Assembly: GCA_026400375.1 (NCBI GenBank)
Contig: JAPLPG010000235.1
Span: 20,248-84,247, forward strand
Direction of reading: 5' to 3'
Length of the DNA: 64,000 nucleotides
Origin: Novosphingobium sp.
GTDB taxonomy: Bacteria > Pseudomonadota > Alphaproteobacteria > Sphingomonadales > Sphingomonadaceae
Positions 33,886 through 38,529 of this stretch are shown here, piece after piece. A program made the position numbers and the translations under genes. Under the pieces are notes generated by a model. It was not told the DNA's origin, ran no database searches, and worked only from the letters and a program-made list of their open reading frames with translations. Numbering within the stretch: position 1 is the first letter of the stretch; each line of letters starts with the position of its first letter.

Positions 33886-34434
33886 TCAGCGTTCGACAAC
33901 ATCCTTGTCCATCGGCGCGAGCCTTGACAGCAGGCGGTTCTGCGCGGCGAAGGGCACCTTGTGTTCGCGCATGGCCTGCTGCAGATTTTCGACCAGCGCG
34001 TTGAGATCGGCGCGGGTGGTGCCAAGGTCCTTGTGCGAGGATTTCATGTCGCGCCCGGTGTAGCTGCAGCCCGCGCCGACGATGAAGCAGATCTGTTCGA
34101 ACAGGGTGCGGCGCAGGCGGACCGTGTCCTGGTTCCTGAAGATATCGGCGATGCGCGGGTCCTTGACGTTCAGGTCCACCAGGCGATCGACGATGCTGCG
34201 GATGCCGTCCTGCCCGCCGAACGCCCGGGCCATGCCATCGCCGGCGAACGGTCTGGCGCCCGCGTTGGCAGGGTCCTGCGCATAGGGATCGACCGGGAAT
34301 TCGCCCGTCACCGGATCGCGGACCTTCTTTTCGATGCCGAATTCCTTTTCCCAGTCCACGGCGGCGGGATCTTCCGGTGGCGCATCGACCACGGGCTGGG
34401 CGGCAAGCAGGGCAAGGGCGAGGGAGAAGGGCAT
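33886..34434 (-). CDS. truncated haemoglobin (group I-like) with signal-like N-terminus
   Basis: MPFSLALALLAAQPVVD; FGGQDGIRSIVDRLVDLNVKDPRIADIF...RRTLFEQICFIVGAGCSYTGRDMKSSHKDLGTT. Confidence 0.8.
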   Translation of the reverse strand: MPFSLALALLAAQPVVDAPPEDPAAVDWEKEFGIEKKVRDPVTGEFPVDPYAQDPANAGARPFAGDGMARAFGGQDGIRSIVDRLVDLNVKDPRIADIFRNQDTVRLRRTLFEQICFIVGAGCSYTGRDMKSSHKDLGTTRADLNALVENLQQAMREHKVPFAAQNRLLSRLAPMDKDVVER

Positions 34435-34444
34435 CGGGCTTCCT

Positions 34445-35392
34445 TCAGAATGCAAACTGGAGCGAGACGAGGCCGCCGCGCTGGCCATCGAACGTGGCGA
34501 CCGAACCGACATCGGCATAGGCGGCGGTGAGCGTGGCGTTCCGGGTCACCGCCCAGGCGACGAACAGGTCGTGTGCGTCATCCTCGCGCGCGATCGCCAG
34601 ATTGCTGGGGCGCGTGCGATATTCGCCGCCGACGACCAGGCGCGGCGTGAGCATCCACGCAAGCGAGCCTTCGAACTGCACGGTGCGGCCGGTCTGGTTG
34701 GGGCCACCAAAGCCGAGCAGCCCGAACTGGTTGGCATTGGTCAGCCGGGCGGTGGCGTTGATCAGCACGCTTTTCGACAGGACCAGCTTGGTCGCGCTGG
34801 CGGTGAAATCGGTGCCATCGGCAGCCGCAGCGCCGACGGCCTTGACGATGGCGCCATCGAGGCTGCGCTTGTGTTGCACGCCCACGCTGATCTGCGGCAG
34901 CCACGGCGAACCATAGACGGTATCGCCCACCAGCCGCAGCTTTGCGCCGAAGATGTCCTGATTGAAGCGGAACCCCTTGCCAAGACCCAGCGCCGCGCCG
35001 ACGTTGCGCGTATCGAAGTTCTGGCGGGCCCAGGACAGTTCGACGCGGTCCCTTATGCCGACAGACAGGCCGTGGCTTTGCCAGCCGTAGTCGGCCAGTT
35101 CGATGCCGGTGACATGGGCGGAGATGCCGATGCCACGATCGGTTTCCATGCCCGCAATCGTCGCCCAGGTGGCCAGCCCGCCGCCGCTAGCGCCTTCGAC
35201 GGTGGAGATGCCGTTGGTAAGCACCAGCTTGCCGCCATCCATCAGCGGTTCGGCGTGGGCCGCACTTGTCAGCGCAAGGGCGGCAATAGCGGCAAACGGC
35301 GCAAGGCTGCGTGAAGACCGGCAGGCGCGGCCGACCTGCCTTTGGCGCGGACTGATCGGATCGGGGGCTTTGTGCGCAAGGTGGGCAGGCAT
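34445..35392 (-). CDS. DUF3034 family exported protein
   Basis: Signal LAPFAAIAALALTSAAHAEP; GGKLVLTNGISTVEGASGGGLATWATIAGMETDRGIG; C-terminal F as in beta-barrels. Confidence 0.75.
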   Translation of the reverse strand: MPAHLAHKAPDPISPRQRQVGRACRSSRSLAPFAAIAALALTSAAHAEPLMDGGKLVLTNGISTVEGASGGGLATWATIAGMETDRGIGISAHVTGIELADYGWQSHGLSVGIRDRVELSWARQNFDTRNVGAALGLGKGFRFNQDIFGAKLRLVGDTVYGSPWLPQISVGVQHKRSLDGAIVKAVGAAAADGTDFTASATKLVLSKSVLINATARLTNANQFGLLGFGGPNQTGRTVQFEGSLAWMLTPRLVVGGEYRTRPSNLAIAREDDAHDLFVAWAVTRNATLTAAYADVGSVATFDGQRGGLVSLQFAF

Positions 35393-35437
35393 GGAGTTGC
35401 ACCGGAATTGAAAGACTTGCGGCGACGTTAACCTTGA

Positions 35438-36169
35438 TTGGTTGAGAAAATGCTGCGCCGCTTTGCGAGTTTTTCACAGGTGATGATTCTGATTTTCTTA
35501 GGAAACATCGGGCATGACGGTGGAATGCTACGCGCGTTCCCTTGGCGATACCCCAGTGTGATGCTGACATCCGGCCTGTTGATTGCGGCACCCATGATGC
35601 TGTCGGCCACGCCCCGTGCCGCGCTGCCGGTGCAAGTGGTCGATCAGGCTGGCATGCCGCTGCGCGATGCCGTTATCGAGATTGCCGCTCCGGCAGGCGA
35701 TGCGCGGCGCCCAGCCTTTCCGTGGCGCAATGCCATGGCCCAGAAGAACCAGGCCTTCGTGCCCGGCACGCTGATCGTGGCCAGGGGCGCAGTCGTGGCC
35801 TTTCCCAACTTCGACAACGTGCGCCACTCGCTCTACAGTTTTTCCAAGCCCGGCCCGTTCAAGATCGACCTCTACGGGCAGGATCAGACCCGGACCCAGC
35901 AATTCAAGGTGGCCGGCACCATCGCTCTGGGCTGCAATATCCACGACCGGATGCAGGGCTATATCCGCGTGACCGACACGCCCTATGCCGCACGCACCGA
36001 TCTGAACGGCCTTGCCGATGTCGAAGGCCTTGCGCGGGGCAGCTATGACGTGGTGGTCTGGCATCCGCGCATTCGCGGCGTTGGCGGCGAATGGCGCGGC
36101 AAGCTGGTGCTGGATCCGGGCAAGCGCCTGCGCGTGACCGTGGCCGTGCGTCCGGACGCCGGCAAGTGA
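35438..36169 (+). CDS. exported cupredoxin-like (methylamine utilization-type) protein with type 1 Cu ligand pattern
   Basis: NFDNVRHSLYSFS plus GCNIHDRMQGYI (H...C-x2-H-x2-M), N-terminal hydrophobic segment. Confidence 0.75.
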   Translation: MVEKMLRRFASFSQVMILIFLGNIGHDGGMLRAFPWRYPSVMLTSGLLIAAPMMLSATPRAALPVQVVDQAGMPLRDAVIEIAAPAGDARRPAFPWRNAMAQKNQAFVPGTLIVARGAVVAFPNFDNVRHSLYSFSKPGPFKIDLYGQDQTRTQQFKVAGTIALGCNIHDRMQGYIRVTDTPYAARTDLNGLADVEGLARGSYDVVVWHPRIRGVGGEWRGKLVLDPGKRLRVTVAVRPDAGK

Positions 36170-38529
36170 CAGCACCGGGCGTGACTGCGTGGCAACGTCT
36201 GGTACGCAAGGCGCGCATCGTCGTGGGCTTGCGCGCGCGCACGCTCGGCAGCCGGATCGCCCTGCTCTATGTCGTGCTGCTGACGCTGGTGATGGCAGCG
36301 ACAATCGTCGTCGCAGGGTCGGGCATCAACCTGTTCGCCCGCGAAACCGCCGAACGCGATCTTGCCGCCAATGCCCGCGTGTTCGACAAGATCATCGACA
36401 CCCGCCAGAACCAGATGGCCGATGCCGGCGAGGTGGTGGCGCGCGACTTCGGCTTCCGCGAGGCCTTTGCCGTCGGCGATGCACCCACGCTGGCTTCGGC
36501 GCTGCAAAGCCTGCGCGATCGGGCACGGGTGAGCGAAGCGGCGATCGTGCACCTGGATGGCAGCGTGATCGCATCGGGTGGAACACAAGCAGGCAACGGC
36601 ACGACGATCGATGGCGCGGCCATGCTTTCGCGGCTGGAAGAGGGGCAGGATCGCGGCGTCGTGACTCTGGACGGGGCCGAGGCGCTGGCCGCTGCGGTGC
36701 CGATAGAGCTGCCCGATCTGGCCGGCTGGCTGGTCCTCGTCAACCGGCTTGGCCCCGAAGACATGGCGCAGCTGTCGCGGCTTTCGGCCGTGGCGGTCGA
36801 GGCGCGGGTGGTCGACAGGGCCGGCCTTGGCAAGAAGCTGGCGAATGTCGCGCTGGGCAAGATCACCGAACTCGATGGCAGCAAGGGCGAACGGCTGGTG
36901 CGCGTTTCGGCCATCGCCAGCCTGCAGGACGGGCGTGAACCGCGGCTGGTCCTGGCCCATTCGTTGAGCGCGGCACTGGCCCGCTATGCCAAATTGCGCA
37001 TGGTTCTGCTGTTGATCAGCGGGATCGGGGTGCTGGCCGGTGCCTGGGCGGCTGTCCGCCTGTCACGAGGCATTGCCCTGCCATTGCAATCGCTGGCGCA
37101 GGCGGCGCGGGCCTATGGCAATGGGGCGGTAGCCAAGGTCAAGGTCGAAGGTGCCATCGAGGTGCGTTCGCTGGCGGACAGCTTCAACGCGATGGTCGAT
37201 GCGGTGGAAGAGCGCGAACAGCAGATCATGCACGCCTCACTCCACGATGCGCTGACCGCGCTGCCCAACCGGCGGTTCTTCATCGAAAAGCTGGACCGGG
37301 CCGTGGCGCGGCAGAGCGAAAACCACCGCACGATGGTGGCGTTCATCGATATCGACGATTTCAAGGCGATCAACGATGCCATGGGCCATCCCTTTGGCGA
37401 TGAACTGTTGCGCAGCGTGGGCCGCAGTCTGCAGGAACAGTTTGCCGACGCGATGATCGCCAGGTTCGGCGGCGATGAATTCGGCCTGCTGCTCGACGGG
37501 CTGGACCCAAGGACCGACCTGACGGCGCTGGCGCGATCGCTCGAAGCCACGCTGAACCGGGAAATGACGATCGATGGGCGCAGCCTGCTGGTTTCGGCCA
37601 GCGTGGGCATTGCCATCGGTCCCAGCGATGCCGACACATCGGACGCGCTGCTTAAAAGTGCCGACCTTGCGCTCTACCGCGCCAAGAGCGAGGGCAAGGG
37701 CGCCTATCACTTCTTCGAACCCGAACTCGATGCCGAGGCAAGCCGCCGCCGCCGCATGGAGATCGACATGCGCCGCGCCATCCGCGACGGTGATTTCGAA
37801 CTCCACTTCCAGCCGCTGTTCTCGATCTCGGAAAACCGGGTGAAAGGCTTCGAGGCACTGATGCGCTGGCCGCACAAGGAGCACGGGATGATTCCGCCGG
37901 TGACCTTCATCCCGATTGCCGAGGAATCAGGGATGATCGTGCAGCTGGGCGAATGGGCGGTGCGCGAGGCGTGCCGCCAGGCCGCACTGTGGCCGAGCGA
38001 CATATCGGTGGCGGTCAATATCTCGCCCCGGCAATTGGTGGCCGATGGGCTGGCGACGTGCGTCGCCCAGGCGCTGGCGCAAACCGGGCTCCCGGCAGAG
38101 CGGCTGGAACTGGAAATCACCGAAAGCGTGTTCATCGGCAATGTCGAGCGGACGCTGAAGATCCTCCATTCGCTGCAGACGCTGAGCGTGCGCGTGGCGC
38201 TGGACGATTTCGGCACGGGCTATTCCTCGCTCAGCTATCTGCGGTCGTTCCCGTTCGACAAGATCAAGATCGACCAGAGCTTCGTGCGCGCGCTGGAAGA
38301 AGGCGGCAGCGCCCACGCCATCATTCGCGCGATCACCACGCTGGCCGATGCGCTGGGCATGGACACGCTGGCAGAAGGCGTGGAAACGCAGGAACTTTCC
38401 GATGCGCTGAAAGCCGAGGGCTGCGACATGATCCAGGGCTATCTGATCAGCCGCCCGGTTCCCGGTGACGACGTGCAGCGCCTGCTATCGACGCTTCACC
38501 CGCATGAAGCTGCGGAAATCGCGGCCTAG
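36166..38529 (+). CDS. membrane-bound GGDEF-EAL protein with periplasmic sensor and HAMP region
   Basis: ARFGGDEFGLLLDG; GFEALMRWPHKEHGMIPPVTFIPIAEESG; two TM segments flanking the sensor. GTG start overlaps upstream stop. Confidence 0.92.
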   Translation: MTAPGVTAWQRLVRKARIVVGLRARTLGSRIALLYVVLLTLVMAATIVVAGSGINLFARETAERDLAANARVFDKIIDTRQNQMADAGEVVARDFGFREAFAVGDAPTLASALQSLRDRARVSEAAIVHLDGSVIASGGTQAGNGTTIDGAAMLSRLEEGQDRGVVTLDGAEALAAAVPIELPDLAGWLVLVNRLGPEDMAQLSRLSAVAVEARVVDRAGLGKKLANVALGKITELDGSKGERLVRVSAIASLQDGREPRLVLAHSLSAALARYAKLRMVLLLISGIGVLAGAWAAVRLSRGIALPLQSLAQAARAYGNGAVAKVKVEGAIEVRSLADSFNAMVDAVEEREQQIMHASLHDALTALPNRRFFIEKLDRAVARQSENHRTMVAFIDIDDFKAINDAMGHPFGDELLRSVGRSLQEQFADAMIARFGGDEFGLLLDGLDPRTDLTALARSLEATLNREMTIDGRSLLVSASVGIAIGPSDADTSDALLKSADLALYRAKSEGKGAYHFFEPELDAEASRRRRMEIDMRRAIRDGDFELHFQPLFSISENRVKGFEALMRWPHKEHGMIPPVTFIPIAEESGMIVQLGEWAVREACRQAALWPSDISVAVNISPRQLVADGLATCVAQALAQTGLPAERLELEITESVFIGNVERTLKILHSLQTLSVRVALDDFGTGYSSLSYLRSFPFDKIKIDQSFVRALEEGGSAHAIIRAITTLADALGMDTLAEGVETQELSDALKAEGCDMIQGYLISRPVPGDDVQRLLSTLHPHEAAEIAA

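Follow-up and report, generated by a model that had tools for sequence, protein, structure and literature searches.

A recurring locus of DUF3034, exported haemoglobin, cupredoxin and GGDEF-EAL genes very probably encodes an undescribed cell-envelope system

Introduction

H-NOX proteins are paired with cyclic di-GMP (c-di-GMP) enzymes in systems that turn a diatomic gas signal into a change in c-di-GMP (PMC8738867). In cable bacteria, exported truncated haemoglobin (trHb) domains are fused to multihaem cytochromes, for which a role as terminal oxidase has been proposed (PMC11976967). A locus comparable to both lies at 33886-38529 of a 64,000-nucleotide stretch of Novosphingobium sp. DNA, referred to here as the window (assembly GCA_026400375.1, contig JAPLPG010000235.1). 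It is composed of four genes in two divergent pairs, with DUF3034 and trHb genes on the minus strand and cupredoxin and GGDEF-EAL genes on the plus strand; an earlier note on this DNA had listed the same genes, families and strands, and all were recovered. The four genes very probably encode one undescribed cell-envelope system. What this module may sense or do we infer from the properties of its parts.

As in the H-NOX pairs, a predicted haem protein is encoded beside a GGDEF/EAL enzyme (PMC8738867). The present locus differs in that its globin appears to be exported, and in that a predicted outer-membrane barrel and a copper protein are added to the set. H-NOX proteins are cytoplasmic and their fold is unrelated to that of the globins. 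No HNOB sensor adjoins the c-di-GMP enzyme at this locus, where the haem protein is a globin, and the HNOB genes of the genome are found on another contig. The latter are two tandem HNOB-domain matches on the minus strand (genome G000, contig C146:3389-4574) that could represent a separate nitric oxide (NO) or O2 sensor.

The cable-bacteria protein lPHCtX also places a trHb outside the cytoplasm, as is predicted here (PMC11976967). Its trHb, however, is one domain of a fusion with a pentahaem cytochrome, whereas the trHb of this locus is a stand-alone protein tied to DUF3034. A paper on this four-gene set was not found in the open-access literature, and the combination of an exported globin, a barrel, a copper protein and a c-di-GMP enzyme appears to be undescribed.

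Conservation of the locus

The window genome is an incomplete assembly of 3.7 Mb in 338 contigs. DUF3034 was sought with the Pfam profile PF11231 in 61 relatives and 399 sampled Pseudomonadota genomes, and was found in 11 of the former and 39 of the latter. The loci that were read comprise the surroundings of these matches and 12 named loci, the named relatives being 11 Novosphingobium and one Altererythrobacter; one match in G003, lying at the end of its contig, was excluded. This provided 61 intact DUF3034 loci with 60 distinct DUF3034 sequences.

The same type of trHb directly follows DUF3034 in all 61 intact loci, and all four genes are present at 50 of them. With HB denoting the haemoglobin, CUP the cupredoxin and GE the GGDEF-EAL gene, these 50 loci are divergent as in the window (27), ordered CUP-GE-DUF3034-HB on one strand (22), or ordered DUF3034-HB-CUP-GE (1). 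The set recurs across several proteobacterial families, far outside the genus. Since the gene content is kept in differing orders, this is strong evidence of a functional link. The earlier note had proposed co-conservation as a check on the grouping, and it holds well beyond Novosphingobium. The flanks were also searched across families for a fifth recurring gene and none was found.

A reverse search with the trHb alignment returned 41 genomes at or above approximately 128 bits, namely the same 39 and two orphans (G214 and G386), with the next score falling to 85 bits. Thus, this type of trHb and DUF3034 are near-obligate partners. Two decaying loci were observed. The pair in G138 (L050, 9183-10422) is decaying and interrupted by stops, and was kept outside the 61 intact loci; in G321 (L051, 9938-10516), DUF3034 is truncated at the amino terminus and the trHb is intact.

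The same survey bears on whether the two gene pairs are independent and co-located only by co-regulation, with DUF3034 and the trHb serving an envelope role of their own and the cupredoxin and GGDEF-EAL protein forming a separate sensor without physical contact. Such an arrangement would account for seven loci at which DUF3034-HB is found without a local cupredoxin or GGDEF-EAL gene, and for the CUP-GE pairs or lone CUP genes found elsewhere. It is nonetheless unlikely given that the pairs stand together at 50 of 61 loci, in differing orders and in several families. The pairwise identities of the four proteins are also correlated (Spearman 0.67-0.80), which shared ancestry alone could produce. 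Finally, at cupredoxin loci that lack DUF3034, its place is usually taken by a different barrel-like protein.

The truncated haemoglobin

The trHb gene (33886-34434, minus strand) encodes 182 amino acids, with the globin domain at approximately residues 66-182. The open reading frame that reaches 34518 is too long; an ATG at 34434 preceded by AAGGA gives the amino terminus MPFSLALALLAA. The protein scores 33.7 bits for Bac_globin (PF01152), where the cut-off is 21, its best PDB matches are group-1 trHbs, and the family profile aligns to HbN with an E-value of 6e-23. In an alignment of 54 family members, the proximal His F8 and the CD1 Phe are invariant. Also present in all 54 is a pair of cysteines, one at E16 and one in the EF loop, spaced seven residues apart.

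The signal-like amino terminus pointed out in the earlier note extends to the whole family, since 61 of 61 trHbs begin with a signal-peptide-like segment or a lipobox as judged by heuristic, and 25 scored as lipoproteins by pattern. Canonical trHbs taken as controls from the same set of genomes start near the globin domain, mostly carry Tyr at B10 and Gln at E7/E11, and have no Cys pair. A second group of exported trHbs was also noted (L187, L188 and L189, from G146, G442 and G420, respectively), with a signal peptide, the same Cys pair and Arg at CD1; these three genomes have no DUF3034 match. Because the canonical controls are without the Cys pair and the second exported group has it, the pair is associated with export, as expected of a disulfide in the envelope.

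The distal pocket is apolar. Position B10 is Val, Leu, Ile or Met in 52 of 54 sequences, E7 is Leu, Phe, Val or Ile and E11 is Leu, Phe or Ile in all 54, and G8 is mostly Leu or Val. The polar distal network that is common, if not universal, in group 1 was not observed, with B10 Tyr in none of the 54 sequences and no Gln at E7 or E11. According to a survey of trHbs, at least one residue that hydrogen bonds the ligand is retained, and Leu at E7/E11/G8 is linked to low O2 affinity (PMC4720485). From the apolar pocket and this survey, weak O2 binding is predicted for the exported trHb, and NO or carbon monoxide may be preferred.

Compared to group-1 trHbs of the HbN type (PDB: 1idr, 2gl3, 5ab8), the family is the same by profile and shares the proximal His and CD1 Phe, yet differs in its export, Cys pair, amino-terminal extension and lack of B10 Tyr and E7/E11 Gln. 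Judged by sequence, the exported trHb is a divergent subfamily of the group-1 fold and not a canonical HbN-type NO dioxygenase.

This pocket is central to a second alternative, in which the module is an enzymatic detoxification system: electrons from the cupredoxin would allow the exported trHb to reduce or scavenge NO, peroxide or O2 within the envelope, and the c-di-GMP enzyme would merely be co-regulated. A type-1 copper electron carrier next to a haem protein is a sensible donor and acceptor pair, the terminal oxidase proposed for the cable-bacteria fusions of trHb and multihaem cytochromes (PMC11976967) is a precedent, and some DUF3034-HB loci have no GGDEF-EAL gene. The trHb pocket, however, is without the network of Tyr and Gln by which canonical trHbs hold O2, the cupredoxin is locally absent from the seven loci with DUF3034-HB alone, and a soluble detoxifying enzyme has no obvious need of a barrel partner. 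With these objections, detoxification is considered improbable.

The DUF3034 protein

The DUF3034 gene (34445-35392, minus strand) is the first of its pair, with the trHb gene 10 bp downstream, and encodes 315 amino acids including a signal sequence. The protein matches PF11231 at 300.8 bits against a cut-off of 25, over positions 1-255 of the profile. An AlphaFold2 model (13 sequences, pLDDT = 71, pTM = 0.75) presented a β-barrel of approximately 12 strands, for which the best fold matches were FapF (E-value 5e-11), OmpG (E-value 1e-8) and COG4313 channels. A carboxy-terminal Phe is found in the window protein and in most members of the family. With a signal sequence, closing strands and a carboxy-terminal aromatic residue, DUF3034, for which the earlier note had offered no interpretation, looks like an outer-membrane β-barrel, as predicted from the model.

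The resemblance to FapF and OmpG-type barrels is one of predicted fold, since TM-scores are only approximately 0.5-0.6 at approximately 10% identity, and function is not transferable. A highly conserved amino-terminal stretch, LTNG..T.EG.SGGGLA.W, was poorly modelled and may serve as a plug. No paper on the function of DUF3034 was found in the open-access literature. Two text matches were dismissed, one being the legend of a retron figure that otherwise concerns DUF3037 and the other an actinobacterial membrane protein.

The cupredoxin and its alternative partner

The cupredoxin gene (35525-36169, plus strand) encodes an exported protein of 214 amino acids. Pfam and PDB searches with the single window sequence gave no cupredoxin match. 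The family profile does match the type-1 copper domains of CuNiR, amicyanin and pseudoazurin. His73, Cys109, His112 and Met115 (numbered by the aligned segment) do not vary across 46 diverse sequences; they form an amicyanin-like set of ligands, His followed by Cys-x2-His-x2-Met. A carboxypeptidase-regulatory-like β domain follows. The predicted model (pLDDT = 78) resembles pseudoazurin over approximately 90 residues, with a low global TM-score due to the extra β domain. The type-1 copper pattern read from the window in the earlier note is thus borne out by ligands, profile and fold, and the protein is, by its sequence, a type-1 copper protein that is predicted to bind copper.

Amicyanin and pseudoazurin share the four ligand types, and the C-x2-H-x2-M loop spacing is that of amicyanin. 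The protein described here differs in being larger, by virtue of its carboxy-terminal regulatory-like β domain, and in its partners, which are a barrel and a GGDEF-EAL protein in place of a dehydrogenase or nitrite reductase.

Cupredoxins of this family are also encoded without DUF3034, and 18 such loci were read. At 12 of these (L164, L166-L172, L176, L178, L179 and L181), the cupredoxin is adjoined by one family of barrel-like proteins of approximately 410 amino acids, often with a GGDEF-EAL gene. This family has a weak match to Porin_4 and a carboxy-terminal aromatic residue in most members, and none of the DUF3034 loci that were read contained it. The cupredoxin thus seems to pair with one of two outer-membrane partners, and the 410-residue family is a possible alternative partner.

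In a third alternative, the module would handle copper, or haem or another metal. The barrel would be an outer-membrane route, copper would be carried or buffered in the periplasm by the cupredoxin, and its status would be reported by the GGDEF-EAL protein; the trHb would protect against reactive species or carry haem. Pairing of the cupredoxin with either of two barrel-like families, sometimes without a GGDEF-EAL gene, is in keeping with such a role, as are the four invariant copper ligands. Set against this, copper-resistance genes do not recur in the flanks, and the Cys-x2-His-x2-Met site, which is of the amicyanin-like electron-transfer type, is not that of a typical transport chaperone. 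An obligate trHb partner would also be left unexplained. Copper handling accordingly has a low probability.

The GGDEF-EAL protein

The gene for the GGDEF-EAL protein (36166-38529, plus strand) begins with GTG and encodes 787 amino acids. Its start overlaps the cupredoxin stop as GTGA at 36166-36169. From the amino terminus, the protein is composed of a transmembrane segment, dCache_3, a second transmembrane segment, HAMP, GGDEF and EAL, consistent with an inner-membrane sensor. All four Pfam matches are above cut-off (GGDEF 135.5, EAL 244.8, dCache_3 31.7 and HAMP 29.9 bits). The transmembrane segments, near residues 30-49 and 279-297, flank the dCache domain and place it in the periplasm. 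Both the GTGA overlap and the periplasmic sensor of the earlier note are therefore present.

Among 55 family members, the EAL Glu is kept in every sequence and the full catalytic set (EAL, N, ExTE, DD, K, E and Q) in 51, including the window protein. At least three of the four incomplete proteins sit in cut or disrupted frames near a contig end. The GGDEF motif is intact in 29 and degenerate in 26; that of the window protein is RFGGDEF, and both of its sites look intact. Because the EAL residues are kept and GGDEF is often degenerate, c-di-GMP hydrolysis is the likelier common output, making the family probable phosphodiesterases. Output of the module through c-di-GMP is plausible on the same basis. 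In three of the 22 CUP-GE-DUF3034-HB loci (L064, L065 and L071), a second GGDEF-EAL gene was found directly upstream of the cupredoxin.

The divergent intergenic region

The cupredoxin start was assigned to a conserved ATG at 35525 and not to a TTG at 35438. As a result, the region between the divergent pairs is 132 bp (35393-35524) and not the 45 bp (35393-35437) of the earlier note. It contains a TTTTCTTAGGAAA dyad (TTTCTTAGGAAA) at approximately 35493-35505 that is largely conserved among Novosphingobium and is a possible operator. The region has no match to a σ70 consensus, and no FNR-like box, as would suggest an FNR/NnrR-type site, was seen by eye.

A model of the envelope module

How the four proteins might work together can be put as follows. 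DUF3034 would form a small barrel in the outer membrane, and the trHb, a lipoprotein in many relatives, would lie beside it on the periplasmic side. The cupredoxin would be a redox-active copper protein of the periplasm, and the co-translated dCache-HAMP-GGDEF-EAL protein the inner-membrane receptor. If loaded with haem and copper, respectively, the trHb and the cupredoxin could register a small diatomic ligand or a redox condition in the envelope and pass their state to the periplasmic sensor domain, presumably by physical contact. Hydrolysis of c-di-GMP by the EAL domain would then change and alter the choice between sessile and motile states. NO would be favoured as ligand, since residues by which O2 is normally held are missing from the pocket. 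Of the readings considered, this relay from haem and copper proteins of two coupled pairs to c-di-GMP has the best support; it is put forward tentatively, at somewhat less than even probability.

In a related form of the model, a gas or redox condition outside the inner membrane would be signalled to a c-di-GMP phosphodiesterase by the barrel, the apolar-pocket globin and the copper protein acting together, and DUF3034 and the 410-residue variant would be interchangeable outer-membrane input units on one cupredoxin/GGDEF-EAL core. This form is possible, if rather doubtful.

Several points weigh against a gas or redox relay. The DUF3034-HB pair stands alone at seven loci, so a c-di-GMP output is not universal to it. 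Genomes with DUF3034 are not enriched in the NO-forming nitrite reductases NirK/NirS (8/39 versus 7/33, p = 1) nor depleted in H-NOX (9/39 versus 12/33, p = 0.30). The control set of 33 was taken in part from genomes with the cupredoxin, and the sample is not clean. As NirK/NirS are not enriched and H-NOX is not replaced, genome content was rejected as support for an NO link, which leaves pocket chemistry as the basis for naming NO. The extracytoplasmic circuit for redox, NO, O2 or copper sensing that the earlier note put forward gained nothing from this comparison. The signal of the Novosphingobium trHb is itself weak, without a basic n-region or a clear AXA site, and signal peptides throughout were judged with a hydrophobicity heuristic and not SignalP. 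The AlphaFold2 models of both DUF3034 and the cupredoxin were built on 13 close relatives, with mean pLDDT of 71 and 78, respectively.

Significance

Through this locus, a context is provided for DUF3034, a large domain of unknown function, as well as for a distinct haemoglobin class that apparently works outside of the cytoplasm. It also raises a testable question, namely whether the gas or redox state of the envelope is read by a haem and copper pair and conveyed to c-di-GMP. Since the DUF3034-trHb pair is present in approximately one tenth of the sampled Pseudomonadota genomes, a function found in one strain would apply widely.

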